From Amanita rubescens (lineage: Eukaryota; Basidiomycota; Agaricomycetes; Agaricales; Amanitaceae), in contig WION01000244.1 of assembly GCA_015039365.1 (NCBI GenBank), forward strand, positions 16,135-80,134: a stretch of 64,000 nt of DNA. Reading direction: 5' to 3'. Below the pieces are notes generated by a model. It did not search any database. It was not told the origin of the DNA and saw only the letters and a program-made list of their open reading frames with translations. A program made the translations under genes and the position numbers. Positions 2 to 39,724 of this stretch are shown here, piece after piece (position 1 is the first letter of the stretch; each line of letters starts with the position of its first letter).

Positions 2-3000
2 AAAGCCTTTAAAGATTTCCTTAACAAAAATGGCATTCAACACCAAACATCGGCACCTCATATACATCAGCAAAATGGACGAGCTGAACGAATGATTCAG
101 ACTTTAAATGATAAGTCTGAAGCTATGCGGCTCGATGCATGTATACCGAGATCATGGTGGGAATTTTCAATCGAAACAGCTGTACACGTATACAATAGAA
201 CCCCAATTGTGCGTGGCAACTGGAAAACGCCTTCGGAACTTTTATATAGTTCCCTTCCTGACGTTCAATACTTTAAAGTATTCGGATGTGAAGCTTGGGT
301 TTTTATCCCAGTTGAAAAACGTTCTGATAAACTATCTCCAAAATCAGAACTTATGACCTTTGTCGGGTATGAACTAGGATCAAAAGCATATAAATTTATG
401 GATTCCAATAACGCGCTAGTCATATCCGCCCAAGCCACATTCTTTGAAGACAGATTTCCTCGTAAAGGAAAAAGTGATATAATTATTACTAAAGATCTTG
501 CACCAATCCTTCTCGATAATCGAGATACTAATAATGGTATTCCATCCCCTTCCCCTGTTAGGGGAAGACAACTTGGTCGCAGGCGCACACAATCTCCTCT
601 ACCAGCTGACTCTGTAGAGGGAGGAGATCCTGAAAGCGACTCAAGCTCCAGCTCCGGTCACTCGGGCGATAAACCGGCATCAGTAAAACGAGAATCATTA
701 TCACCCCTATCAGATGGCCTTAAAACTCCGTCTTGGGGATTAAAATCTCGTAGTCCAACACCGGACGATGCTGATAGACCGGATAGTCCTGATATCAGAA
801 AAGGTTCCACCATGGATGATCTTAGAAGGAGATTCCAAGAAACCATGAGGAACATTGACGATGAACTAGAGGACCTGGAAGCAGGAGAAAGAACTCGCCT
901 GCTGGAAGAAAACAGTGGACTTCGTGACAGGCACACGAATATAGAAATTCGTAGACGCAATGCGGATGAAATCTTAAAGAAATTCATCCCTGACAGAAGT
1001 CCACCACGCACGAATACTAGAGAACAAGTCTTGGATATTAGAAAAAGACTTGCAGAAAGATTCGCGCCAAATAGGAACCTTGAACAAGGAAATAAAGATC
1101 GTATACCAATCTCTGAATTCAAAAAGGAGATTGATGAACAAATTCCGATGCCAGATCTAACTTTTAATAAAGTTAGAGAGGAATTTGGCAAACGATCAAC
1201 CGTTCAAAAGCCTATAAATCCAGCAGATTATATCCCTGAAACGATTAGACCATCATCCAAAGCCATGGGAAAACGTAGAGAAAGATCCAAATCTTTAGAT
1301 AGATCTCATAGACCTCGTAGTAAACAGAGGCTAAATGAACCCACTCCAGTGGTACCCCCACCGGCAGTAGTTCCCCGGAGATCTAATCGCGTTCCCAAGC
1401 CAATTATACGTAAAGACAATGCGTATGGTGAAAAGAAGGCAGTTGAAATAGAAAAAGAAATTCTCAGACAAAGAGATCTGATCAAATATCAGATTGACAA
1501 TTACGAGAATGACTTTGGTGGTCGTATCCCAAATAAGGATGCGGCTACACGCTTTAATCCAACTGCTAAAACACCGCCTTCAAGATCTATGGATATAGAT
1601 CCAAAGGCAACGATGGCTAGGATGATCAAAGAGTGTGGAAATGACTTCATGCATTTCCTACTCATGAATATGATACCAAGAGAAGAAATTCGAACGTATC
1701 AATATAGGGATATATATAAGATCAAAGGTGAAAATATTGATCTATATAAGCAGTGGCGAACTGCTATGGAAGACGAGTTCAAATCTCTACAGAATAGAGA
1801 TATATGGGAATTAATGGAATTACCAAAAGGGCGTAACCCAATAAAGTGTCGTTGGGTTTATGATATTAAGTCGGATGGCCGTAAAAAGGCACGACTTGTC
1901 GCCAAAGGCTTTAGCCAACGCCCGGGATTGGATTATGATGAAACATTCTCGCCGGTAGCGAGATATGAAACAATTAGACTTCTTCTGGCAACAAGTGCTT
2001 TAGAAAATTGGGATATTGAAGCACTTGACGTTAAAACCGCTTTCCTCTATGGCGACTTAGACGAGGAAATATATATGCAACAACCAGAAGGTTTCATCAT
2101 TAAAGGACAAGAATCTAAAGTATATAAACTTAAGAAAGCTATTTATGGCTTAAAACAAGCATCGTACGCTTGGAATAAACAAGCAGACAAATCCTTGAAG
2201 TCCCTAGGATTTAAACGATGCTTAGCCGACTCTGGCATATATGTCAGAACCACAGATAAAGATATTACCATATGTGTAATATATGTGGACGATATACTTT
2301 TCATGGGAGACAGAACCGAAACAATTTCATATATCAAAAAGGAGTTTATGAAAATGTGGGAATGTCGTGACCTAGGAAAAGTCAAAGAATACTTGGGCAT
2401 CAGAATCAATTACGACCGAGCGATTGGTACGCTTGTAATAGATCAAGCTGCCTATGCGAAGACAGTCGTAGAACGCTTTGGTTTGTTAAATTGCAAACCG
2501 GTGTCAACTCCTTTACCTGCAGGATATGTACCTGCTAAAAACACCTCTGAAGCATCCTCCGAGGATAGATCCTATTATCAACAAATAATTGGATCGTTAT
2601 TATATCTCGCCTTAGGAACTAGGCCTGATATTGCTTATGCTGTTATCTTAATGTCACAATTTTCTGTTAATCCATCATACGACCACATCCAAAGGGCGCT
2701 TTATATAGTAAAATATATAGCGCACACCCTTGATACACGAATCACTTATTCCAGAAATGGGAAAGGCTTCGTTGCCTATGCAGACGCAGATTGGGCGTCT
2801 GACAGAGAGACTAGAGTCTCGGTTACAGGCTATGCCTTAACTTTGGCAGGGGGTGCAGTTTGTTGGGTTTCTCGAAAACAGAAAACAGTTGCGTTGTCAT
2901 CAACGGAAGCTGAATATATGGCAATGTCCGATGCCTCACGTCAAATTATGTGGGTGCTAAACCTATACCAAGAATTAGGTTTCCCCTTGGGCGGCATTGA

Positions 3001-3601
3001 CCTTCTTTGCGACAATCAGGGTGCGATATTTCTGGCATCAAACCCTGCACAACAGCACAAGTCAAAACACATTTCCATTCGCTATCATTACATTAGGGAA
3101 CGTGTTGAACAAAAAGAGATCAATCTTTATTACGTTCCCACCAATCAACAAATAGCGGACTTAATGACTAAGAATCTGAATAGAGAAAAGATTCAGTTCT
3201 TTATAAATGAATTAGGAATCACCGTTAATGTCACTCCATATCCCACTATCAAAATGCATAGTGCAAGTCACTGGATACACCTTTCAGCCGAAGGGTTAAA
3301 TGGAGTTGAAGCAACATTCATGTATACGAACTGGCGACAAATTTTCGTTCGTGATATGCTTGATCCGAAAGTACCAAAGGATACGTTCATGAATAGAAAA
3401 GAAGATCTTCTGCCGAAACCAGTTAGAGATCGTATTATGAAGACATACGAACCTATAAGGCAGTCAAAGATCAAAAGATCCTTTAGACGAGAAGACATTG
3501 ATATGTTGGACTCGTGGAATCTTTTAGAAACATTGACGGATGAAAATAAATTCCTAGTAGAGTTCATTAAGAAGAAATGGCGAATAAATGTTCTAGGATG
3601 A
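2..3601 (+). CDS. Ty1/Copia polyprotein, 5'-truncated by window edge
   Basis: This is the C-terminal part of a Copia-type retrotransposon polyprotein, the enzyme set for reverse transcription and integration. The frame is open from base 2, so the true start lies outside the window. Counting from the first ATG (base 92), the integrase core ends near residue 1 (QNGRAER lies just upstream and spans it). A charged linker covers about 150-540, reverse transcriptase about 550-800 with YVDD at about residue 731, and RNase H about 890-1040 with STEAEYMAM and a C-terminal ADLMTK motif. The frame has no stop or shift over 1.2 kb of pol, so the copy looks young. About 115 extra residues follow RNase H; most Copia proteins end soon after it. 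A polypurine run and an LTR follow directly. Confidence 0.95.
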   Translation, partial: KAFKDFLNKNGIQHQTSAPHIHQQNGRAERMIQTLNDKSEAMRLDACIPRSWWEFSIETAVHVYNRTPIVRGNWKTPSELLYSSLPDVQYFKVFGCEAWVFIPVEKRSDKLSPKSELMTFVGYELGSKAYKFMDSNNALVISAQATFFEDRFPRKGKSDIIITKDLAPILLDNRDTNNGIPSPSPVRGRQLGRRRTQSPLPADSVEGGDPESDSSSSSGHSGDKPASVKRESLSPLSDGLKTPSWGLKSRSPTPDDADRPDSPDIRKGSTMDDLRRRFQETMRNIDDELEDLEAGERTRLLEENSGLRDRHTNIEIRRRNADEILKKFIPDRSPPRTNTREQVLDIRKRLAERFAPNRNLEQGNKDRIPISEFKKEIDEQIPMPDLTFNKVREEFGKRSTVQKPINPADYIPETIRPSSKAMGKRRERSKSLDRSHRPRSKQRLNEPTPVVPPPAVVPRRSNRVPKPIIRKDNAYGEKKAVEIEKEILRQRDLIKYQIDNYENDFGGRIPNKDAATRFNPTAKTPPSRSMDIDPKATMARMIKECGNDFMHFLLMNMIPREEIRTYQYRDIYKIKGENIDLYKQWRTAMEDEFKSLQNRDIWELMELPKGRNPIKCRWVYDIKSDGRKKARLVAKGFSQRPGLDYDETFSPVARYETIRLLLATSALENWDIEALDVKTAFLYGDLDEEIYMQQPEGFIIKGQESKVYKLKKAIYGLKQASYAWNKQADKSLKSLGFKRCLADSGIYVRTTDKDITICVIYVDDILFMGDRTETISYIKKEFMKMWECRDLGKVKEYLGIRINYDRAIGTLVIDQAAYAKTVVERFGLLNCKPVSTPLPAGYVPAKNTSEASSEDRSYYQQIIGSLLYLALGTRPDIAYAVILMSQFSVNPSYDHIQRALYIVKYIAHTLDTRITYSRNGKGFVAYADADWASDRETRVSVTGYALTLAGGAVCWVSRKQKTVALSSTEAEYMAMSDASRQIMWVLNLYQELGFPLGGIDLLCDNQGAIFLASNPAQQHKSKHISIRYHYIRERVEQKEINLYYVPTNQQIADLMTKNLNREKIQFFINELGITVNVTPYPTIKMHSASHWIHLSAEGLNGVEATFMYTNWRQIFVRDMLDPKVPKDTFMNRKEDLLPKPVRDRIMKTYEPIRQSKIKRSFRREDIDMLDSWNLLETLTDENKFLVEFIKKKWRINVLG

Positions 3602-3614
3602 CTTAGCGAGGGGG

Positions 3615-4026
3615 TGTGACGAAGTTATCTTATCTAATCTAAGATAACAAGGAGATCTTATCTTATCTGCTTACTAAGCAGATTAGGATATATATAGATA
3701 GAACCTTGTAGAAGGTTCTAGTACGCTTGCGTCATCCTTACTGCGGATGGCGCCATATGACACCATAGCTGCGCATGACATCAGCGCAGCTCCATATTTC
3801 CATATATGAGTATGACATATGTAGTTACATATATTTACCTATGTTGTTACCTATTAGGACACAGACAGTATATAAACCTGCCATGTACCGTAGAATAGGA
3901 ACAAGCTCTCTTAACCTCGTACCACCATCTTCTCAGCTGAGTGGTCAGCTACTGTACACATCGGGTAAGCTATCGCTTTAACTCCTCGACGCTGCGCTAC
4001 TGGGCGTTTCCCTTTCGTCAGTTACA
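3615..4026 (+). repeat. Copia 3' LTR
   Basis: The segment begins TGTGACGAAG just after a GAGGGGG polypurine tract behind the Copia stop codon, and ends CTTTCGTCAGTTACA. The ends pair as imperfect inverted repeats in TG...CA form, giving a 412 bp LTR. A TATATAAA box lies near 3869. The Gypsy protease frame starts on the next base, so the Copia element is inserted inside the Gypsy coding region. The 5' LTR and the matching target duplication are outside the window, so the exact boundary is inferred from the TGT/ACA ends. Confidence 0.8.
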
Positions 4027-4565
4027 TCCAAGGGAAAGGAAAAAACCAGATGACGGTTAGCGGCACAGTCACCACCTTAGATACTTTCCAAAGGCACAAG
4101 ACGGAGATCCTCATAGACTCGGGATGTACCGGATCCTGCGTTAATGAAAATTTTGTACGGAAACACAATATTAACACGCGACGTCTAGACCGACCCATCC
4201 CCGTATACAACGCCGATGGTACGCCTAACTTAGGAGGAGCATTAAAAGAGATGGTACAATTGAGGATGCAAATCGGAGCTCACTACGAAGTCTTCGAATT
4301 CGGAGTATCAACGCTCGGAAAGGTCGACATATTCTTAGGACACGATTGGTTAAAACATCATAACCTGATTGTGGATTGGAAGAAGGGCTCACTCCTCATG
4401 AAACGCTGCCCAGGTGACTGCCATATAGACGAAAAGGATGAGGAAGGAATAGATACAGAAGGCGATGATAAGACCGGTGGAACACATGAATGGGAAGAAG
4501 GCGATAGATTGATAGCGGTAATGGAGGAAGAGCAGTACTTTACACTCCCCCCCCAGTCCGATTAG
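4027..4565 (+). pseudogene. Gypsy gag-pol fragment: aspartic protease
   Basis: This is a retropepsin-like protease domain from a Ty3/Gypsy polyprotein. The catalytic motif is visible as LIDSGCTGS, followed by a typical FLGHDWLKHHN segment about 80 residues later. The frame is already open where the Copia LTR ends, so the upstream gag part was cut off by the Copia insertion and lies outside the window. At the other end the frame runs into an inserted element at about 4547 and stops after a few unrelated codons. The rest of pol resumes at about 6990. It is a broken piece of one element, not a separate gene. Confidence 0.85.
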
Positions 4566-6989: not shown

Positions 6990-9900
6990 ACAGTAAAGAC
7001 CTCGAGGAAGAGACGGAAGGATGGGAATTGAGAGCATACGCGACCACGGCGACTGAAATAGCAGCGGCGAATCAGACAAAACGTGATACGAAAGATATCA
7101 TAGTACCCGCTCACTATTTGAGTCACCGAGAAGTATTCGAAAAAGAAACGTTTGACGAGCTACCAAAAAGGGGAAGATGGGATCATGCGATTGAATTGAT
7201 ACCAGGCACAAAGGCCGTAGATTGCAAGATTTACCCACTAAATAAAGAGGAACAAACCCAATTGGACGCGTTCCTGAAAGAAAATCTAGAGACGGGACGG
7301 ATAAGGACCAGCAAATCCCCGATGGCTTCACCTTTCTTTTTCATTAAAAAGAAGGATGGAAAACTAAGACCAGTACAAGATTATCGGAAATTGAACGAGA
7401 TGACGATCAAAAACCGATACCCCTTGCCGCTAATATCGGAATTAATAGACCAACTCAGTCACGCCCGAGTATTTTCGAAAATGGACATCAGGTGGGGGTA
7501 CAACAACGTACGGATAAAGGAAGGAGATGAGTGGAAGGCGGCGTTTAGGACCAATCGAGGATTGTTCGAACCGCTGGTGATGTTCTTTGGACTTACGAAT
7601 TCACCGGCTACATTCCAAACGATGATGAACGACATATTCCGAGAAGAGATAGCAGAGGGATGGGTAGTGATATATATGGACGATATATTAGTGTACTCCC
7701 AAGACGAAGAGACGCACAAACTACACGTAAATAGGATCCTAAAAAAGTTGAAAGAGCACAAACTATCGTTAAAAGCGGAAAAATGCTGGTTCGACCAGAA
7801 AACGATTGAGTTTCTGGGATTGATAATATCACACGATTCAATACGCATGGATAAAGCCAAAGTCCGGGCGATATTGGATTGGCCACGACCAACGAATAAA
7901 TGAGAACTTCAGCAATTTTTAGGATTCGTGAACTTTTACCGACGATTCGTAAAAGGATTCGCAAAAATAGCCAAAGCACTCACACAACTGACGGGAAAGG
8001 AAGGATGGATGTGAACAGTATTACAAGAGGAAGCATTTATGGGACTGAAGATGAGGATTGGGGAAGAAGTGGTGTTAGCGATACCATCAGATAAAGGAAA
8101 ATACAGAGTAGAGACAGACGCATCGGACTTTGCCATGGGAGCGGTACTATCGCAACAACAGGAAGACGGCACATGGAGACCGGTGGCCTTTATTTCGAAA
8201 TCGCTCAACCCAGCGGAACGAAACTATGAAGTCTACGACAAGGAATTGTTAGCAATCATGCACGCCTTGTATGAATGGTCTCACTACCTGAAAGGGACGG
8301 AGGAACAGATCGAGATCTTAACGGACCATCAAAACTTAACATACTTCCGAAAACCTCAGAACGTCAACCGAAGACAAGCGAGATGGGTGTTGGATTTACA
8401 GGAGTACAATTTTGTCCTGAAACACAGACCCGGGAAAACCAACACCAAGGCCGACGCCTTGTCTAGAAGAGCGGACCATGATAAAGGAGAAACGGATAAT
8501 GAAGGGACGACGTTGTTAAAAGAAGAATGCTTTATAAGAGTATGGGAAGAGGGAGACGATTTACATAAAATGGAAAATGAGTTGAGGAAAATAAATCCTC
8601 GTCAATGGGAAGAGAAAATTAGGAAAGCGGTAGAGAATAAGGAAGACGGGTGGCAGGTGCGAGACGGAGGATTGGTGACTTGGCACGAGAGGGTGTATAT
8701 CCCTGTTGTACGAAAGCTCCGAGAACAATTCATCGCGGAACACCACAGATGGGGACATTCAGGAGTAGACAAGACGATAGAATTGATGTTACGAAACTAT
8801 TGGTGGCCGGGACTACGAAGGGATGTGGAAGACTACGTGCGAAGTTGTAGGACATGTCAGACCGCTAAACCGGATAGACAAAAGAAAGCCGCGCCTCTGC
8901 ATCCGAACAAGACGCCGAGAGGACCATGGAGTGTAATATCGGTGGACATGATCGGACCGTTACCCGAATCCAAAGGGTTCAACGCCGTGTTAGTAGTAGT
9001 AGATCGATTTACGAAGAAAGCGTATTTCATACCTACAAATACGACACTTTCTAGTCAAGGAACGGCTATACTATTCAGAGATCATGTTTTCAGAGAGCAC
9101 GGAATACCAGAAAAGGTTATCAGCGATCGAGGACCTCAATTCGTATCCAAATTCATGAAGGAACTGTATCAAGTACTTCGAATTAAAGCCAACCCTTCCA
9201 CTGCTTACCATCCGCAAACAGACGGACAGACGGAGAGGGTAAATCAAGAAGTGAAAGAATTCTTAACGATGTTCGTAAATCATCAACAAGATGATTGGAG
9301 TGACTGGTTAGCAGTGGCTCAATTCTGTCATAACGACCGAACACATTCGGCTACTGGATTTTCCCCGTTCTTCTTGAACAACGGACGTAATCCTAGGAAA
9401 GGACTTGAACTGACGATGGAGAGGAAGGTACAAGCAGTAGACGAATGGGTGGATAGGTTGGTGGAAGCGTGCGATCAAGCGAGGAAGGGACTGAATAAGG
9501 CGGCGGAAAATATGCGAAAACAATACGATAAAAAGAAACAACCAGCGAGAAATTACCAGAAGGGTGATAAAGTCTATATTAGCGCCCAAAATCTACCTTC
9601 GCTACGAACGACAAAGAAGTTAGATGGGAAGTTCATAGGACCGTACGATGTGGTTGAAAAAGTGGGATCAACGGCTTATCGAATCAGAATACCCGTATCA
9701 TGGAAGGTCTACAATGTTTTCAACGAAGCGTTGTTGAAACCCCATGTACCGGCTAAATTCCCTAAGCAAATAGCGCAGGAAAAAGAATGGGCAAAAAGGA
9801 AGGAAGAGGATCACGCCAAAAAAGACGAGGAGTTTGAAGTAGAGGAAGTAATCGATAGCAGGCAGAGGACGCAGAAAGGAGCACGTACGGGGAGGTTAGA

Positions 9901-10237
9901 ATATTTGGTGAAGTGGAAGGGATATCCCAACGAAGAAGCGACATGGGAACCGGCGGGTAATCTGGAGAACGCTCATCGCAAGGTCCAAGAGTTTCATAAG
10001 AAGAAACCGAATGCACCCAGACCGTTGGCGATGCCCGCCAAGTTCTTTCAGAGGTACCACAACTATACGGATCCGCCGGTACATAAGAAGTTATTTGGAT
10101 GGGAAGACGGGAAATTCGACAAAGGATACTTGAAGAATATGAACAAGAAGTGGGCAGAATGGAAACATATGAGAAAAATCGTGGAGGAAGACGATGATGA
10201 TTCTCGGGACGAGAATCTTAAGGAGGGGGTGATGTAA
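6990..10237 (+). pseudogene. Gypsy (chromovirus) pol: RT, RNase H, integrase, chromodomain
   Basis: One reading frame carries the rest of the Gypsy polyprotein. Reverse transcriptase lies at 7090-7900 (YMDDILVY near 7672) and RNase H at 8100-8480 (ETDASDFAMGAVL). An H2C2 zinc finger is near 8740-8850. The integrase core has Asp near 8944, Asp near 9124 and Glu near 9232. A C-terminal chromodomain lies at 9835-10000 (EYLVKWKGY, ATWEP). Two in-frame TGA codons, at 7901 and 8009, interrupt it; the second replaces an expected TGG and both fit C-to-T-type transitions. There are no frameshifts, so decay is recent. The chromodomain places it in the chromovirus lineage, whose integrases usually aim at histone-marked chromatin (family knowledge). 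Confidence 0.93.
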
Positions 10238-10550: not shown

Positions 10551-10996
10551 TATCGTCTCTTCATCAGTAGATGCTATGTCCAAATATATGATCTAAGTAA
10601 AGAATATCTTCCGCCGATCTCAGCGGTGTAATCGGCGGAATGCTATTTACAAAATATCAGAGTTTAAGAGATCCGCCAATTCAAACACTGACATCCGCGG
10701 ACGAAAAGATGCAGAAATGTTCCGCCCATTCCAGTGTTGTCATTGGCGGATCATAAAATATCCTATGTTCTGAAGGCAGACATCATTCCGCCTATTCTGA
10801 TGTCTTCATCCGCGGTTAAATATCTACCGAATAATATAATATATTGTGTTTCATGTGTGTTATATACATATTAACAAAAATATATCCGCGGATTATTTTT
10901 AGATTTTGAGCCATGCTATGCGAAAAACCAATACCCTTAACCCCCCCCTGCTTACCCTAAACCCCCCACCCTTACTGACTTAGGCCTATATAATAG
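10551..10996. repeat. Long direct repeat, copy 1
   Basis: This block and 11381-11852 share the same order of sequence: TCTCTTCATCAGTRGATGCTATGTCC at the left, then GTTCCGCC...TTGGCGGATCAT, CTTCATCCGCGGTTAAATAT, a TATATACAT stretch, and at the right a C-run plus ACTGACTTAGGCCTATATAAT. A perfect 10-bp inverted repeat, TTCCGCCGAT/ATCGGCGGAA, sits at 10609-10618 and 10631-10640. No coding frame is seen. The pair could be LTR-like ends of a short element, but no TG...CA termini were identified. Confidence 0.6.
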
Positions 10997-11380
10997 TCTA
11001 GCCATTGTAATGTACACTGTATATTTAACATTCACTGCCGCCTCTTAGCATTTGACCATTGCTGCTGCCATTTCTATACCTCCTCATCTATTATTTCTGA
11101 TGAGCAAAAGGATGTTTCCTTATATCATACATTCCAATTGAACAGTCCAGAGGGGTGTGACAGCAGTGGAGAGCAGAGGGTAAGCGCTCCTGGTGTTGTG
11201 ACCTATATGTCACTACAGGTCACAACTTGACGAATATTGAAGGCTCAATAACTCAAAAACTGGACCGCCGATTTCTTAGCTATTGCAGGGTTAGTAAGTG
11301 GTATATGATACCTTTCCATTGATACAATAAGATTTGAAAAAATCTATGATATGTTTATAGTACTAGTGTTATAAAAAGGT

Positions 11381-11852
11381 GTATAATCTCTTCATCAGTG
11401 GATGCTATGTCCAAGTTTATGAGATCCACCTATTTTAACATTGACATCGGCAGAATAATAGTTATTCAAATGCCATCATCGGCTGATGAAAAGACAGAGA
11501 AATGTTCCGCCAATTCCAATGTTGTCATTGGCGGATCATAAGTCATGGTATGCTCTGAAGGCAGAAATCATTCTGCCTATTCTCATGTCTTCATCCGCGG
11601 TTAAATATGTACTGAATGATATAAATACCAATTCAGAACCCTGAAACTCATCACCCGCACTTCTAGATGCCTCAGCCACATATGTTTTTATGTCAATATG
11701 TTAGGTTTCATATGTGTTATATACATTCTAACAAAATATATCCGTGCATTATTTTTAAACTTTGGACCATGCAGTGGGCAAAATTGATACCCTGAACCCC
11801 CCCCTGTATACCCTGAACCCCCCACCCTTACTGACTTAGGCCTATATAATTA
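11381..11852. repeat. Long direct repeat, copy 2
   Basis: Second copy of the block at 10551-10996, with an extra stretch of about 65 bp after CGCGGTTAAATAT. The spacer between the copies (10997-11380) is noncoding and holds a 9-bp inverted repeat GTTGTGACC/GGTCACAAC at 11195-11203 and 11218-11226. Two shorter copies of only the right-hand end lie at 12121-12180 and 12184-12241, so the C-run plus CCTATATAAT motif occurs four times. From 11853 to 12120 nothing coding is seen, apart from an 11-bp inverted repeat AGTCCAGTCCA/TGGACTGGACT at 12062-12106. Confidence 0.55.
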
Positions 11853-12290
11853 TCACCCCATCTATGTTCCGAGTTCAATTCCTTCTGTTCCCTTCGTTCC
11901 TCAGTGCTTCGGACACCTTCCACTCGTTCACCTTCATCTTCGGCACCCTCTCTGCACCTGAGACTCCCTTCAGACTGACCTCCGTAGTCCCTTTGGCTGA
12001 ACGCACTTCCACATCGGCCTTCTTCTGATCGTTTCACCAGTCCCAGTCCAAATCTGGTCACAGTCCAGTCCAGTTCTGGTTTTTTTCAGTCCTAATGGAC
12101 TGGACTTTCAAACACTACCCGTAACCCCTCCAGTGTATACCCTGAACCCAGGACCCTAACTGAATTAGGGTCTATATAATACCATGAACCCCCCCTGCTT
12201 ACCCTAAACCCCCCACCCTCACTGACTTAGGCCTATATAATCCAGGAGAAAATGGTTCTTTATTATACATATATAGGTATAAAATCCACA

Positions 12291-15200
12291 TTAATGTGCT
12301 GAAGATATATCAGCTAGTATTCCAGCCCAAAAGAAACTGGACTTACATAATAAATTGTTAAGAACTAATTTTCTGTATTCAGCACACTCTTCTTCAGATG
12401 GGCAATGCTTCATGATGAACCAATCATTGATGGCCATTGACCTCAAGTAGTTGTCCAGGTCTTGGTCAACCAGTGCATGCTGGGTGTTGAGATAATATTG
12501 CCAGGCCTTGGTGAATCCATCATTAGAATTGCAGCCTTGCTGGACAAGCCAGAAGGAATGTTCAAGACAGATGAGGATGGCTGTACAGGTAATGGTAAGA
12601 AACTGTAAATATAAAAGAAATGGCAAAATTAATCAGACCAATGAAACAATGCAAAGAAGGTACCTATGTAATTGGGAATACTTAAGTGAAGGGAATGAAA
12701 AGAATGAAATATGATCCTACATTGAATTGAGTGTCCATAAGACCTTGAACATGTTTCACCTGTGAATTCATGCCTATTAATAAAGTAGGGCAAAGAGAGT
12801 AGGTGGGAAAGACAGGTACAAACTAAACAAGATGTGAGAGTGATGTCAGGAATTCAGGAGATGCACAGTGACTCACTTTCTGGATGGGATTTCATGGTAA
12901 CATGTCAGCAATTCAAATTGGGCTAGGAGGCACACAGTCACTCACAACCTGTATGAGATTTCATTGCAACATGTCAGCAATTCAAATTGAGCTAGGAGGA
13001 ACACAGTCACTCACAAACTGGATGGGATTTCATTGCAACATGTCAGCAATTCAAATTGAGCTAGGAGGCACACAGTCACTCACTCGCTGGATGGCAACAT
13101 GTCAGCAGTTCAAATTGAGCTACTGAGGCACATAGTCACTCACTTCCTGGATGGGATTTCATGGCAACATGTCAGCAATTCAAATTGAGCTATGTACAGT
13201 CACTCACAAACTGGAGGGGATTTCATGGTAACATGTTAGCAATTCAAATTGAGCTAGGAGGCACACAGTCACTCACAAACTGCATGGGATTTATGGCAAC
13301 ATGTCAGCAATTCAAATTGAGCTAGGGGGCACACAGTCACTCACAAACTGGATAAAATTTCATGGCAATATGTCAGCAATTCAAATTGAGCTAGGAGGCA
13401 CACAGTCACTCACTCGCTGGATGGGTTTTCATGGCAACATGTTAGCAATTCAACTTGAACTAGGAGGCACACAGTCACTCACTCCCTGGATGGGATTTCA
13501 TGACAACATGTTAGCAATTCAAATTGAGCTAGGATGCACACAGTCACTCACTGACTGGATGAAATTTCCAACATGTCAACAGTTCAAATGAGCTTGGAGG
13601 CACAGTCACTCACTCCCTGGAGGGGATTTCATGGTAACATGTCAGCAATTCAAATGCACTAGGAGGCACAATCACTCACTCCCTGGATGGGATTTCATGG
13701 TAACATGGCAGCAATTCAAATTGAGCTAGGAGGCACACAGTCACTCACTTCCTGGATGGGATTTCATGACAACATGTCAACAATTCAAATTGAGCTAGGA
13801 GGCACACAGTCACTCACTCCCTGGATGGGATTTCATGGTAACATGTCAGCAATTCAAATTGAACTAGGAGGCACACAGTTACTCACTCCCTGGATGGGAT
13901 TTCATGGCAACATGTCAGCAATTCAAATTGAGCTAGGGGGCACATAGTCACTCACTCGCTGGATGGATTTCATTGCAACATGTCAGCAATTCAAATTGAG
14001 CTACTGGAGGCATACAGCACTCACTTGCTAGATGGGATTTCATGACAACATGTCAGCAATTCAAATTGAGCTAGGAGGCACACAGTCACTCACAAGCTGG
14101 ATGGGATTTCATGGTAACATGTCAGCAATTCAAATTAAGCTAGGAGGTGCACAGTCACTCACTCCCTGGATGTGATTTCATGGCAACATGTCAGCAATTC
14201 AAATTGAGCTAGGAGACACACAGTCACTCACTTCCTGGATGGGATTTCATGGCAACATGTTAGCAATTAAAATTGGGCTAGGAGGCACACAGTCACTCAC
14301 AACCTGGATGGATTTCATGGTAACATGTCAACAATTCAAATTGAGCTAGGAGGCACAAAACCACTCACTTCCTGGATGGGATTTCATGGCAACATGTTAG
14401 CAATTCAAATTGAGCTAGGAGGCACACAGTCACTCACTCCCTGGATGGGATTTCATGGCAACATGTCAGCAATTCAAATTGAGCTACAGGGCACACAGTC
14501 ACTCACTTTCTGGATGGGATTCCATGGCAACATGTCAGCAATTCAAATTGAGCTAAGAGGAATGGAGTCACTTACTCCCTGGATGAGATTTCATGGCAAC
14601 ATGTTAGCAATTCAAATTGAGCTAGGACTCGGCACACAGTCACTCACAACCTGGATGGAATTTCATGGCAACATGTTAGCAATTCAAGTTAAGCTAGGAG
14701 GCACAGTCACTCACTCCCTGGATGGGATTTCATGGCAGCATGTCAGCAATTCAAATTGAGCTAGGAGGCACACAATCACTCACAAACTGGATGGGATTTC
14801 ATGGCAACATGTTAGCAATTCAAATTGAGCTAGGAGGCACACAATCACTCACAAACTGGATGGGATTTCATGGCAACATGTCAGCAATTCAAATTGAGCT
14901 AGTCAGAGGCACACAGTCACTCACTTCCTGGATGGGATTTCACAGCAACATGTCAGCAATTCAAATTGAGCTAGGAGGCACACAGTCACTCACAAACTGC
15001 ATGGGGTTTCATGGCAACATGTAAGCAATCCAAATTGAGCAAGGAGGCACACAGTCACTCACAACCTGGATGGGATTTCACAGCAACATGTCAGCAATTT
15101 ACATCAAGTGAAGGAGGCACACAGCAACTCACCTTCCAGATAATGAGGTGAATCATTTCTATCAATTTGGAATCCTCCAAGTAACTTGCTTATTACCTCC

Positions 15201-16806
15201 TATACACTGCATTCACAGGTTGACTTCCTAGTATGACTTTGAAATTCTCACATTTCTCTCCTTATCATTTACATAATTAGTATATTGTTAAATCAGCTTA
15301 ATGTCACACCCACATACTGAATATCCAGGTTAAACCTTGTCACCAATATTGGGTCATGATACTTACATCCTGAAATATCTGTCATCACCATCTTCCCTGG
15401 CTCAAGCAGAAGTGGATTCTCACATGATGCTTCACAATGTCAGTCATAGGTCAAGAAAATGTATTTCAATTTTCATACCTGCCAATAGCAATGTCCAAAC
15501 CAAGATGCAGCCTTGTAAATCAAGCCATGCTTTGTTTATTTGAGCACTCAAATCTCTACAATTGAAGAAAAATGTACCACTGTTGAGGTATTCTCAAAGA
15601 TAAACCTCATAGAGAGATAAGTTGCAGCAACACTGGTATATGAGTGGATGACAGACTTGTTCACTGCATATTCAATGCAGACCTCTAGGTTATTCTGTTG
15701 GACAGTGACAAACAACATCTTCAGTGCCAAGTCATCAATTGATGCTGCTGTTTGTTTGATTAGTTCCCCAACTTGTTCCTGATCATTACCATTTTCCTCT
15801 TGGATGGCTGGCCATGCTATAAGTCCCAAGATTGGTTGCTAAAGGATAAGAGACATACATTCAAATCGCACATATGCACAAGGTGGAAACTTGTAGCCCT
15901 TAAGTGGCTTCTCAAATTTCTTCTCCAAGGTAGCACAAGCAATTTCTCTATTCTTCTCATCTTCTTCATTCCTATCATAGACTTGTGTGATGAGATCATC
16001 AAATTTTGTGAAGATTGCCACAACCGGAACTGTCTGTGGTCAGTCACAGTGAAGATTCTATTGAACAATCTTACCATTCCCACAATATTGCTCATTGAAG
16101 AACCTCTGTTCCAATTCCAATAATGGGCGAGATACATCTGGAGCAAAACAAAACCTGAACACATTGTCAGTTGCACTGCCACATAAAGGAAGGATAACAC
16201 ACCATATCGCATGGATTTGGTCCTTTACTTCAGTTGCTTTTGCCTTCTCCTGTATGAAAGAGAGTACATCCTGAAGTTCCTGCTCGCCTCCTGCCTCAAA
16301 ACCAGGAGAGTCATGGAAGATAAATTGTGGGTTGCTCTTGAATGAAAACTCTTCCTGTACATTATGAATCCCTCGCTAGAGCATCCGAGTCAAAGTCAAT
16401 GACCTGTTTAGAGAAATACGCAAGGATCACCTTCGAGGACGGGTTAATCTGTCGGTGAAGGGGTGATGATGGTGGGGTATCAAGCAAAGTGGATACTATC
16501 TCTTACCTGGTTGTAAACTGGATCCTCCCTCGTATTGCAGACCCGCTTCAGCAGCGTCGTTTTACCAGCATTCGCCCTCCCGATGACGAGGATACGGAAG
16601 TGGGTGTACTTGGCCCGAAGTTTCGCAGCTTCTACCGGGTCGGTCGTCATCGTTGGTACAGTGAGTGCTAGATCAGCTGGAGCCACATCAACGGTTGGAG
16701 GCGCCGAATTCGAGAGGCTAGGAGGCGATCCCCGTCCGAACATCTTCCTCAGGCGATTACGAAATCCCTTGGACTCTTTGGCAGTCTGCGACCGTTGGTC
16801 AGCCAT
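12291..16806 (-). CDS. GTPase (P-loop G-domain) gene with giant array-bearing intron
   Basis: A fungal GTP-binding protein family with a hydrophobic C-terminal part. Exons read in frame on the minus strand are 16806-16507, 16448-16431 (an 18-nt exon), 16375-16203, 16154-16075, 16029-15859, 15807-15606, 15555-15479 and 15429-15367. The last exon is 12602-12291, with a hydrophobic start (TITCTAILICLEH). Exons between 15366 and 15133 are uncertain. The G1 motif GRANAGKT is at residues 76-83, the G3 motif DSPG near 128-131 and the G4 motif TKFD near 200. The start ATG at 16806 (MADQ) is preferred over one 14 codons upstream. The intron before the last exon contains the tandem array described separately. 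CpG is frequent upstream of about 16,360 and scarce through the rest of the gene. No function beyond GTP binding is assigned. Confidence 0.75.
12822..15132 (-). repeat. Tandem array of 33 mini-intron units with variable triplets
   Basis: Thirty-three units, mostly 69 bp (range 60-72), lie head to tail; a degenerate extra unit occupies 12822-12876. Read on the coding (minus) strand of the GTPase gene, each unit is GTGAGTGACTGTGTGCC... TTGCTGACATG... CCCATCCAG, a complete fungal-type intron of about 66 nt. Donors are GTRAGT in 33 of 33 (one GTAAGT). Acceptors are YAG in 33 of 33 (one TAG). The branch motif is CTRAC in 28 of 33, and 32 keep the branch A, about 25 nt before the acceptor. Between each acceptor and the next donor are exactly three bases. 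In coding sense these are GGA x9, TTT x7, GAA x5, GTT x4, CGA x3, AAA x2, and TCA, CAA and CTT once each. The units themselves are nearly identical. Confidence 0.9.
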
Positions 16807-31699: not shown

Positions 31700-32790
31700 G
31701 TGCGACGGTGCCAGCTGGGCAAAGGTCTGGTGGTGCCGAAAAACCACTGTTGGGCGAGGGTCTGATGGTGCCAAAAAACCACTGCTGGGAGAGGGTCTGG
31801 TGGTGTCGAAAAACCACGCTGGGAGAGGGTCTGGTGGTGCCGAAAAACCACTGCTGGGCGAGGTTCTGGTGGTGCCAAAAAACCACTGTTGGGCGAGGGT
31901 CTGATGGTGCCAAAAAACCACTGCTGGGAGAGGGTCTGGTGGTGCCGAAAAACCACTGCTGGGCGAGAGTCCGGTGGTGTCGAAAAACCACGCTTGGAGA
32001 GGGTCTGGTGGTGCCGAAAAACCACTACTGGGAGAGGGTCCGGTGGTGCGATAAAACCATCACTTGGTGAGGGTCTGGTGGTGCCGAAAAACCACTATTG
32101 GGCGAGGGTCTGGTGGTGTCGAAAAACCACTGCTGGGCGAGAGTCTGGTGGTGTCGAAAAACCACGCTTGGAGAGGGTCTGGTGGTGTCGAAAAACCACT
32201 ACTGGGAGAGGGTCCGGTGGTGCGATAAAACCATCACTTGGTGAGGGTCTGGTGGTGCCGAAAAACCACTATTGGGCGAGGGTCTGGTGGTGCCGAAAAA
32301 CCACTGTTGGGTGAGGGTCTGGTGGTGCCGAAAAACCACTGTTGGACGAGGGTCTGGTGGTGCCGAAAAACCACTGTTGGACGAGGGTCTGGTGGTGTCG
32401 AAAAACCACGCTGGGAGAGGGTCTGGTGGTGCCGAAAAACCACTGTTGGGTGGGGGTCTGGTGGTGCCGAAAAACCACTGTTGGGTGGGGGTCTGGTGGT
32501 ACTGAAAAACCACCCCTTGGCGAGGATCCAGTGGTGTGATAAAACCACTGCTGGGTTCAGTGGTACGAAAAAACCATTGCTGGGCGAGGATCCGGTGGTA
32601 CAATAACACCAAGATTGGGAGGGGGTGTGCTGGTGCGAAAAAACTACTGCTGCGCGAGGGTCTGGTGGTGCGAAGAAACCACTGCTGGGCGGGGGTCCAA
32701 CGGTGCGAAAAAACCACTGCCGGGTAAGGGTCCGATGGTGCAAAAAGACCACTGGTGGGCGAGGGCCCAGTGGTGCTAAAAAACTACAGT
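31700..32790. repeat. 36-bp minisatellite, about 30 units
   Basis: The unit is GAGGGTCTGGTGGTGCCG plus AAAAACCACTGCTGGGCG, with variants. GTGGT and ACCAC inside each unit are complementary around an eight-base loop, so every unit can fold into a small hairpin. A higher-order repeat of about 174 bp (five units) is duplicated at 31,965 and 32,139. Because 36 is a multiple of three, long frames open on both strands (up to about 200 codons). These are judged to be by-products of the repeat. The array lies between the two dsRBD minigene clusters. Confidence 0.85.
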
Positions 32791-32799
32791 CTACAGCCA

Positions 32800-33877
32800 G
32801 GCGTGCAAGAGAATTATGACCAGTCGAGAGTGAGATGGTGTGAGAAAATCGCAATGGGTGGGGCTAAGATGGCGCAAGAAACCTGGCTGGGAGGATATGG
32901 AAATGAGAGGTAAGGATTGTATGCCGGCGCTCAATTACCACGTACTTGTGCAGGCAGCGCTGGTTGGCTATCGTGGGCGGGCGGTTGAGGCAGCATCGGC
33001 GTAATTGCACGCGGCCAGTCGACGCAGTTGACGGTTACGTGTTAGCGCTCAATCACACAGGCGGGCATCGGAGGCTGGACGAGAAGCAATAGGAATTTGG
33101 CAGTGGAAAAAAAGCATATTGGTGGTGCTCGAGTACTACAGGGTTGATGGTGCATAAGGACTAGGTAGACCCTGCGATATAGTTGCTAGCGATACGTGGC
33201 GTGATTGTCACCGCGAGAGGAACGAACGGGCGTGCCAACTTTTGGCGGGAAGTGTGTGTCTGTTTGGAACGGCTGGGAGGTCACGGGTTATCCGACAGAT
33301 AACCTTACCACGTAAGCCGCATCTTCCCCGACTTGCACAATGCACTGTTCGCGTTGTCTGATCGTAAACTGGTAGGTGCAGACTATCGGTTTTTTGTCCA
33401 GAGTCCCATGTCTGAATGTGCCGCTGTGAGAATCAATAGACTGACGCTCGTTGCCATACTGGTGGAGATTTAGAAGAAAACTAGGATAAACCTTACGTTA
33501 GGGTCCCAACATTTTACCGACTCCTTGTTAACCCACCGGTCGTGAAACCCTACGTTCCCACAATCAAGTGGCTTGGAGGCCTAGACTATATGGCCATTAG
33601 CAGGAACTGAGCGCGGGTGAGCCTGGGATTTGTTCAGGAGACAGGTGAATCTTGCCCTTGGTGTTTTTGTGCCCGTCTAACAGGAAAAAAGGCTCCAGTC
33701 ATGATGCACGACGCTTAACCCTGGCGTTTGAACAAGTTGAAGTTTCGAGATGCGGCCGTGTCGATCCCGTTCAATCCATCTAGCATCGAACTCAATATGA
33801 TTATTCAAAGTGATTACGATAGTAACTACTAATGTGTCAATACCCATCTACATTGCAAAGGAAAGAGTTGTAGGTCG
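32800..33877. other. Region without a supported gene
   Basis: Nothing coding is supported. The first 100 bases still show decayed minisatellite units (GGTGNGANAAAAYC). From about 33,300 the base composition becomes even and only very short frames occur. Confidence 0.3.
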
Positions 33878-38956: not shown

Positions 38957-39724
38957 ATGCGTCTCTTGCCCGCCGTCGCCATCGCCCTCCTCTTTGACTC
39001 TTATGTCACTGCCGATCCCATGCCACGTCATGCACAAATTGCATTTCCTGAGCCTGAACCTTATCATCGGGCCGCGCCAACATTTCCTCAATGGGAGCCG
39101 TTTGGTTATCCCCCGGCGCAAGCATTTCCTCATCCCGTCATACCATTTCCTCAGCCCTACTATAGTCATCCGAGTAGCCCACCAAAATTTCCTGAGCCCC
39201 AGCCGTATATTCATCCGAGTCGCCCACCACCATTTCCTCAGCCTCAGCCGTATATTCATCCAAGTCGCCCACCACCATTTCCTCAGCCTCAGCCATATGG
39301 TCGCCGCCCACCACCATTGCCTCCTCGACCCAATGGTCGCCGCCCACCACCCCTGCCTCCTCGACCCAATGGTCGCCGCCCACCACCACTACCTCCTCGA
39401 CCCAATGGTCATTCGACGCCATCTTCTCTCCAACCCTCCACCGGTCGTCGCACGAGTACAGTGCCCCCGCCGTCGTACTCCGGCCCGGAGCCCGACTGGG
39501 ATCACCTTGACGACCCCCCGCCCCCGTACGTTGATTCCCGGCCCTCATCTCCCGCTGAAGATGATGGCCCTCGCGACCCCCCAATGCAAATTTTTCGCCA
39601 CGGGCCCCCTCGAGGGCTGCCAAATTGGCCAAGTACAAAAGCGATCAAAGCGGTCAAAGCAGATGAAATGCGACGCCAACTTGCTAGGCAACAGCGTGCA
39701 TCGCGGAACCCAGGGCAGAATTAA
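38957..39724 (+). CDS. Secreted proline-rich repeat protein
   Basis: An intronless 255-aa protein. Residues 1-20 form a clear signal peptide (MRLLPAVAIALLFDSYVTA, cut before DP). The mature part is mostly proline-rich repeats: FPQPQPYIHPSRPPP-type units, then three copies of NGRRPPPLPPRP. A tail with a PPPPY motif and a basic, helix-prone C-terminus (KAVKADEMRRQLARQQ) follows. Repeat and composition point to a cell-wall or extracellular matrix protein, or a secreted intrinsically disordered protein. No enzyme domain is present. The overlapping 325-aa frame shares the repeats but lacks a signal peptide and starts upstream of the TATA box. Confidence 0.75.
   Translation: MRLLPAVAIALLFDSYVTADPMPRHAQIAFPEPEPYHRAAPTFPQWEPFGYPPAQAFPHPVIPFPQPYYSHPSSPPKFPEPQPYIHPSRPPPFPQPQPYIHPSRPPPFPQPQPYGRRPPPLPPRPNGRRPPPLPPRPNGRRPPPLPPRPNGHSTPSSLQPSTGRRTSTVPPPSYSGPEPDWDHLDDPPPPYVDSRPSSPAEDDGPRDPPMQIFRHGPPRGLPNWPSTKAIKAVKADEMRRQLARQQRASRNPGQN

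Follow-up and report, generated by a model that had tools for sequence, protein, structure and literature searches.

The 64,000-nt stretch of Amanita rubescens DNA analysed here (the window) carries a GTPase gene on its minus strand. Exon 1 (16507..16806) opens with the start codon (MADQRSQ...), contains the P-loop GRANAGKT and agrees with the NCBI models P0001 and P0002. It is followed by exon 2 (16431..16448; INPSSK, phase 0), by exon 3 (16203..16375; RGIHNVQEEFSF...IHAIW), whose start was set by a TAG acceptor so that it reads RGIHNV, like P0010 and P0001, and by exons 4 (16075..16154) and 5 (15859..16029; VPVVAIFTKFDDL...). The junctions of exon 6 (15657..15807; SIQEENG...EYAVNK) follow P0005 and P0001, exon 7 (15578..15605; FIFENTSTV) has a homologous exon in P0005, and exon 8 (15479..15529; HGLIYKAASWFGHCYWQ), which ends in phase 0, has its homologues at the ends of P0001 and P0005. 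Seven A. rubescens NCBI models (P0001-P0003, P0005-P0007 and P0010) stop upstream of the tandem array described below. In the predicted spliced protein of a paralogue (L018), Pfam returned MMR_HSR1 above its cut-off and no NACHT or ankyrin match at E<=0.001.

Downstream of exon 8, a series of micro-exons is predicted on the same strand, most of which recur as a pattern in the 27 array-bearing copies of the gene that were fetched from the genome. These are a 6-nt micro-exon CATCAT (15424..15429), which is GATTAT in the nine of 27 copies where the pattern resolved it; the 3-nt micro-exons GAT (15367..15369; 27/27 copies, GAG in L026) and TAT (15314..15316; 27/27); a 9-nt micro-exon GAGAGAAAT (15252..15260), 9 nt long in all 27 copies; and the 3-nt micro-exons GAG (15197..15199; 15/27) and AAG (15133..15135). 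The last of these is preceded by TGG here and by TAG in most other copies, and the acceptor before the first AAG has therefore probably been lost in the window copy. Next comes the array itself (12823..15132), parsed as 34 introns and 33 putative single-codon exons, which read VFEFFGVGKGEVEGLQRGGEGGSGRFFFERFVK 5' to 3' and lie at 15063-15065, 14994-14996, 14925-14927, 14853-14855 and so on to 12877-12879. Beyond it are a 3-nt micro-exon TTT (12820..12822), the exon VKHVQGLMDTQFN (12721..12759, phase 0), found as a pattern in 22 of the 27 copies and reading V(N/K)HVQGLMDTQFN after TTT across copies, and the C-terminal exon FLTITCTAILICLEHSFW...LVLNNLL (12347..12602, phase 0), whose end at GTAAGT is our reading of the sequence. 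The reading frame would close in a last exon placed at 12291..12298, with the stop codon at 12291-12293.

Elsewhere in the window, two long open frames on the plus strand (92-3601 and 7028-10237) read in translation like copia-type and gypsy-type retrotransposon polyproteins, respectively. A 35-bp tandem repeat (31714-32784; about 31 copies, higher-order period 174 bp) overlaps a 206-aa open frame (32234-32854), and 45-bp and 36-bp tandem repeats (39142-39410) lie within a 255-aa proline-rich open frame (38957-39724). Downstream of the GTPase gene, a motif resembling ATTATATAGGCCTAAGTCAGTRAGGGTGGGGGGTTYAGGGTA recurs several times in the region 10930-12300 and may belong to a mobile element.

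Tandem Repeats Finder (TRF), run on the window, reported a repeat at 12864-15132 with a period of 69, 33.2 copies and 86% matches. The initial annotation had described 33 complete mini-introns inside one gene here, and our parse recovers them, adding, if the last one is counted, a thirty-fourth: between a first donor at 15132 and a last acceptor that ends at 12823, 34 mini-introns run head to tail on the minus strand, 33 of them alike and the last one diverged and 54 nt long. A donor and an acceptor are indeed kept in every unit (34/34), the donors being GTGAGT in 33 introns and GTAAGT in one, and the acceptors CAG in 32 and TAG in two. The further claim that each unit also carries a branch point holds for most units only, as a [CT]TRAC motif whose A lies 15-25 nt before the intron end is present in 32 of the 34 introns and absent from introns 2 and 21. 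The substitutions named at the outset as preserving the signals agree with our counts, including the CTAAC form of the branch-like motif in eight introns. Intron length ranges from 54 to 69 nt, with 23 of 34 introns at 66 nt and 11 at other lengths.

The distance from each acceptor to the next donor is exactly 3 nt in all 33 gaps of the window array, and these gaps are the most variable part of the repeat unit, two features absent from the initial annotation. Their triplets are GGA (9), TTT (7), GAA (5), GTT (4), CGA (3), AAA (2) and CTT, CAA and TCA (1 each), with no stop triplet among the 33. A count of [CT]AG-N3-GTRAGT over the whole window gives 36 minus-strand sites, of which three are not in the array, and a single plus-strand site; the same pattern with any other gap of 1-9 nt occurs 0-4 times per strand. 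With regard to phase, exons 7 and 8 end in phase 0 in the NCBI models P0005 and P0001, and the C-terminal exon opens in phase 0. Phase 1 for the array codons was ruled out because neighbours such as TTT-GAA would create stops, and exons 7 and 8 are in phase 0 in P0001 and P0005. The gaps are codon-like in that phase 0 fits both flanking exons, in that none of the 610 gap triplets parsed from the 27 arrays is a stop, and in that homologues have similar residues in a peptide at the corresponding place. The idea of an intron made of introns is thus not supported; the units appear instead to be separate introns between codon-like 3-nt gaps.

A search with 401 bases of the array found at least 27 arrays in the genome, a lower bound grouped by eye, and all 27 were fetched. 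The upstream flanks of all 26 other loci align to the window gene in the same orientation, as do the downstream flanks in 25 of 26 (the exception being L035), and tblastn placed the G-domain exon in 26 of the 27 fetched loci and the C-terminal exon in 25; in L012, a C-terminal exon is located about 8.6 kb farther along. Copies outside genes and in either orientation would have spoken against introns; such copies were looked for, and all of these arrays (at least 27) occupy one position and one strand in copies of one gene. The proposal that the units are intron-like, lie on the sense strand inside a gene and multiplied together with their splice sites is supported. Outside the array, four exon pieces of 20 copies give a pN of 0.058 and a pS of 0.167 (ratio 0.35) and contain no internal stops, after removal of duplicates (three loci) and of matches that were partial or contained gaps. 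Individual lesions occur in L014 (a frameshift in the C-terminal exon), L030 (TAG in the C-terminal exon) and L025 (TGA in exon 3). In L010, L013, L017 and L026 the array start appears fused to the upstream intron, and in L010, L013 and L026 the array end likewise appears fused to the downstream intron; by our reading, the hybrid introns of these four loci keep a donor and an acceptor that preserve phase 0. In L015 the array is down to a few units, and other DNA of about 1.1 kb separates unit matches.

From the 27 arrays, 616 units were parsed, and 610 of their gaps are triplets: GGA 186, GCA 92, TTT 77, CGA 77, CTT 68, CAA 46, GAA 20, GTT 19, AGA 9, TAT 6, TGG 3 and seven rarer ones, amounting to nearly one codon per amino acid, and TAA, TAG and TGA are all absent. 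The six remaining gaps comprise three of 6 nt, two of 4 nt and one of 2 nt, and L011, L014 and L016 each hold one frame-breaking gap; 75 of the 616 introns differ from 66 nt, and in six more intervals a unit has a donor that is not GTRAGT. Because indels are at least as frequent per base in the gaps as in the introns of the homogeneous arrays, the constancy of gap length there was not used as evidence.

Gaps and introns differ sharply in how they vary. In an alignment of 557 rows in which splice sites were not required and three duplicate arrays were dropped, the gap has a mean mismatch of 0.44, compared with 0.0021 for the donor, 0.0024 for the acceptor, 0.0090 for the branch motif and 0.0152 for the other intron columns; the branch motif is thus only mildly better kept than the rest of the intron. 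This alignment repeats the comparison of an earlier random-column test of the splice signals, which was partly circular because its units had been cut at GTRAGT and AG. Gap variability exceeds intron variability in all 23 arrays with at least six units. Among 3,040 pairs of units from the same array with identical 66-nt introns, the codon differs in 2,492 (82%), compared with 81% of all pairs. Since ordinary duplication would copy intron and codon together, the introns must, on this evidence, have been homogenised, or the codons diversified, separately. Equal adjacent codons are in excess (147 of 522 observed, 97 expected), which is what local tandem duplication predicts. Linkage between codon and intron variants is weak and clearly exceeds expectation in two cases only: 18 against 10.1 expected (sd 2.8) for intron positions 57-65 with the next codon, and 63 against 56.9 expected (sd 1.7) for intron positions 7-16 with the previous codon.

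The codon strings also differ between copies, with 24 distinct ones among the 27 arrays. L014 and L023 have flanks that are 99.8% alike over 4,051 bp and codon strings that are 0.62 alike; L018 and L023 have flanks 100% alike over 1,286 bp and strings 0.64 alike; and L021 and L024 have flanks 99.1% alike over 4,229 bp and strings only 0.27 alike, where shuffled codon strings give a mean similarity of 0.33 and a 95th percentile of 0.50. L024 and L025, on the other hand, have flanks 98.4% alike and identical codon strings. Comparisons of this kind indicate that the arrays can turn over faster than their flanks, yet do not do so uniformly.

One diverged paralogue, the only diverged copy fetched, with 60% identity in the searched exon, was examined through the 2-kb stretch 3' of it (L036). 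No tandem repeat is detectable in this stretch. AG-N3-GT nevertheless occurs 20 times on its sense strand, compared with a mean of 0.37 and a maximum of 3 in 300 shuffles, whereas AG and GT separated by 1, 2, 4, 5, 7, 8, 9 or 11 nt do not occur and separations of 0, 6, 10 and 12 nt occur once each. The triplets read NDWTEEDYHEKWFKERKEYK. The introns of L036 have thus diverged and the splice signals and 3-nt spacing alone remain, a survival for which a satellite would have no reason.

Genome-wide site counts on both strands show the same preference, although these counts, like those of the arrays, are of sites that include related copies and not of independent events. CAACAG and GTRAGT are separated by 3 nt at 3,490 sites, compared with 48 for 2 nt, 22 for 4 nt and 66 for 6 nt, and reversed-pattern controls give 17, 25, 35 and 20 for gaps of 3, 2, 4 and 6 nt, respectively. 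The triplet is TAA or TGA at 3 of the CAACAG-N3-GTRAGT sites (all three being TGA), compared with 1,716 of the class VRA and 136 of the class TRY. For the looser pattern YAG-N3-GTRAGT there are 10,421 sites (reversed 3,009) and for YAG-N4-GTRAGT 1,799 (reversed 3,384), so that N3 exceeds N4 by about 8,600 and its reversed control by about 7,400. Among the matches listed, the N3 sites form single-strand runs. A GTPase match lies just upstream on the same strand in three of 12 groups, formed by eye from the first 100 listed N3 places and with 150 of 322 candidates scored. On the minus strand of contig C749, a cluster of two-nt gaps (10 of 48) and four-nt gaps (3 of 22) lies at about 2137-4150 and is perhaps a decayed array.

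Homologues in other species were compared at the place of the array. P0100, P0120, P0121, P0106 and P0097 come from contigs of 960-1,554 bases and run uninterrupted across it, and because they do so on such short contigs, they probably derive from transcripts. They carry a low-complexity peptide between WF.H...DYG and ICLE[HN]SFW, the tract being ARGFAFAGFRRFAVGAGAGRFGAGADAF in P0100 and GGLGGGRLGGRLGHLRLGLGGRGGGLGHLRLL in P0097. The residue alphabet of P0100 and P0097 resembles that of the A. rubescens array codons, and Y, K, D or E is more frequent in P0120, P0121 and P0106. With residues 290-450 of a predicted spliced protein as query, eight matches were retrieved among 72 candidates, the best being P0100 (5.4e-40). 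In P0122 and P0123 the C-terminal exon seems, by our reading, to be joined to the read-through of an array of similar kind. P0011, from Phlegmacium glaucopus, has a hydrophobic run MMLILMMVMMLLLLLIML at this place, which is either another type of peptide or a gene-model artefact.

A structural model of the homologue P0038, built on a 29-sequence alignment, has a mean pLDDT of 82.6. Residues with pLDDT below 50 are 1-18, 74-78, 296-314 and 316-320, and the longest internal low-confidence stretch (296-320) falls inside the variable tract, which lies between WFRH (287) and LCAENSFW (353). The first two PDB ranks in a Foldseek search with this model were GM4951 and Irga6, both weak matches (TM-scores 0.34-0.41, rmsd >10), so that a resemblance to immunity-related (IRG-like) GTPases is a lead at most, too weak to build on.

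Read from the genome, the signals, the phase, the gap length, the avoidance of stops and the variability of the codons, together with the change of arrays between near-identically flanked paralogues and the survival of signals and spacing in L036, point with high confidence to a hypervariable part of the GTPase gene that is written as single-codon exons and would be spliced in phase 0. Each unit of about 66 nt would be a normal intron, recognised by intron definition and removed singly. Once one intron is removed, its 3-nt exon would become the new end of the upstream exon and make the next donor usable, and the 3-nt exons would link exon 8 to the C-terminal exons in phase 0, adding about 33 residues in the window copy. 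Near-identical introns may let units recombine and so reshuffle the codons, and since the gaps are of 3 nt, the number of units would be neutral to the frame and the peptide free to grow, shrink and be reshuffled. The encoded peptide may be a loop selected for variety, perhaps in recognition. A more ambitious version, which we regard as possible though doubtful, is a diversity generator in which the near-identical introns act as recombination tracts within and between the paralogues (at least 27), the codons act as one-residue cassettes, and in-frame splicing yields hypervariable recognition loops, possibly multiplied by exon skipping.

A related reading is that the codons are spliced alternatively, each micro-exon being skippable in frame, so that one gene would give many peptides. 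This is a form of the single-codon exon reading rather than a departure from it, and we put it at slightly under an even chance. Gaps of 3 nt let every donor pair with any later acceptor in phase 0, alternative splicing is described for the 3-bp mini-exons of Tuber in the portions of the reviews available to us, and the 2- and 4-nt gaps found in three copies would be passed over if exons were skipped; against this, the sequence gives no sign of skipping, and the avoidance of stops suggests that the codons matter as written, although that is compatible with skipping too. The history of the arrays could also have begun with mobile, introner-like introns that inserted at the codon boundaries of a low-complexity exon. 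Near-identical introns between diverse codons, and a peptide at the same place in homologues, would fit such an origin, which we consider improbable in view of the confinement of the arrays (at least 27, with their 69-bp unit) to one place in one gene family and of the excess of equal adjacent codons, which fits tandem duplication.

That the array is a minisatellite within one long intron, with incidental splice-like motifs and only the outer sites in use, is very improbable. Such a reading would account for the high identity, tandem arrangement and variable number of near-identical units, for gap indels being no rarer per base than intron indels, and for gene models that end upstream of the array. 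It does not account for a unit whose parts are singled out (mismatch of 0.44 in the gap compared with 0.015 in the intron and 0.002 in donor and acceptor), for the lack of stops in the gaps, for 3-nt gaps and signals that persist in the repeat-free L036, or for 3,490 genome-wide N3 sites compared with 22-66 for other gaps. Least credible of all is a nested or composite intron of the stwintron type, with units lying within one another and removed together: many introns are adjacent here, and stwintrons are known in fungi from the literature as far as it was accessible, but the 34 units are complete, stand head to tail 3 nt apart, and none interrupts the donor, branch point or acceptor of another. 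The readings as a plain minisatellite, as a stwintron and as dispersed introners were accordingly rejected after these tests.

If arrays of single-codon exons are indeed what the gene contains, a genome in which 3-nt exons follow one another probably by the thousand would offer a natural test of the spliceosome below exon-definition size. Constant introns between hypervariable codons would also allow the turnover of the region to be measured from DNA. Exons of this kind can escape annotation: the seven public A. rubescens models all end before the array.

The closest parallel is in truffles. Iotti et al. reportedly described, in 2012, nank genes with 3-bp mini-exons in Tuber melanosporum. According to the parts of later papers available to us, these NACHT-ANK (nank) receptors contain dozens of 3-bp mini-exons (PMC9815663, PMC4986451, PMC3689799, PMC10197012), for which alternative splicing is reported and which are said to diversify the C-terminal recognition region. 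So far as those accounts go, the Amanita gene is like the nank genes in having tens of codon-sized exons in an expanded fungal family (33 in the window and 20 in L036, as predicted from DNA alone), and unlike them in that the nank product is an ascomycete NLR and the Amanita gene encodes a basidiomycete GTPase without a NACHT or ankyrin match. We found no mention of homogenised introns in Tuber nank genes in the portions of the reviews accessible to us.

Other systems share single features, again as far as the accessible text describes them. The NLR repeats of Podospora NWD/HNWD genes are under concerted evolution (PMC4986451) and likewise combine near-identical repeats, a few fast-changing codons, a varying number of units and reshuffling; the constant part of the repeat is protein there, whereas it would be intron in Amanita. 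Aphid bicycle genes form a micro-exon-rich effector family (PMC9168663), and these genes and schistosome MEGs resemble the Amanita gene in producing fast-evolving proteins from many very small exons; their proteins are different, however, and we found no tandem 3-nt exons with near-identical introns described in the parts of that literature consulted. Exons of 1-3 nt do exist, per the passages available, in Drosophila hth (3 bp; PMC7392893), in exon 2 of Ganoderma gpd (3 bp, a basidiomycete case; PMC8379801) and in Arabidopsis APC11, whose 1-nt exon led to a proposal of intron definition with stepwise removal (PMC4674806), but these are isolated, whereas Amanita has runs of tens. Stwintrons and introner-like elements are, in the descriptions we could consult, multiplied fungal introns too, although nested or dispersed rather than head to tail in one family; introner-like elements are near-identical across many unrelated genes, and the Amanita arrays (at least 27) belong to one gene family.

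A 2024 abstract states that functional micro-exons had not previously been described in filamentous fungi (PMC11121469), though the work cites the truffle paper. Our literature search, conducted mostly without subscription papers, found no published case of single-codon exon runs in basidiomycetes. As predicted from the genome, and relative to what the accessible accounts say of truffles, the architecture of the Amanita array gene is of the Tuber type, with a different protein and in a different phylum. If true, this would extend arrays of codon-sized exons to a second fungal phylum and to a protein that is not an NLR, and would suggest that fungi have more than once reached the same way of diversifying a protein.
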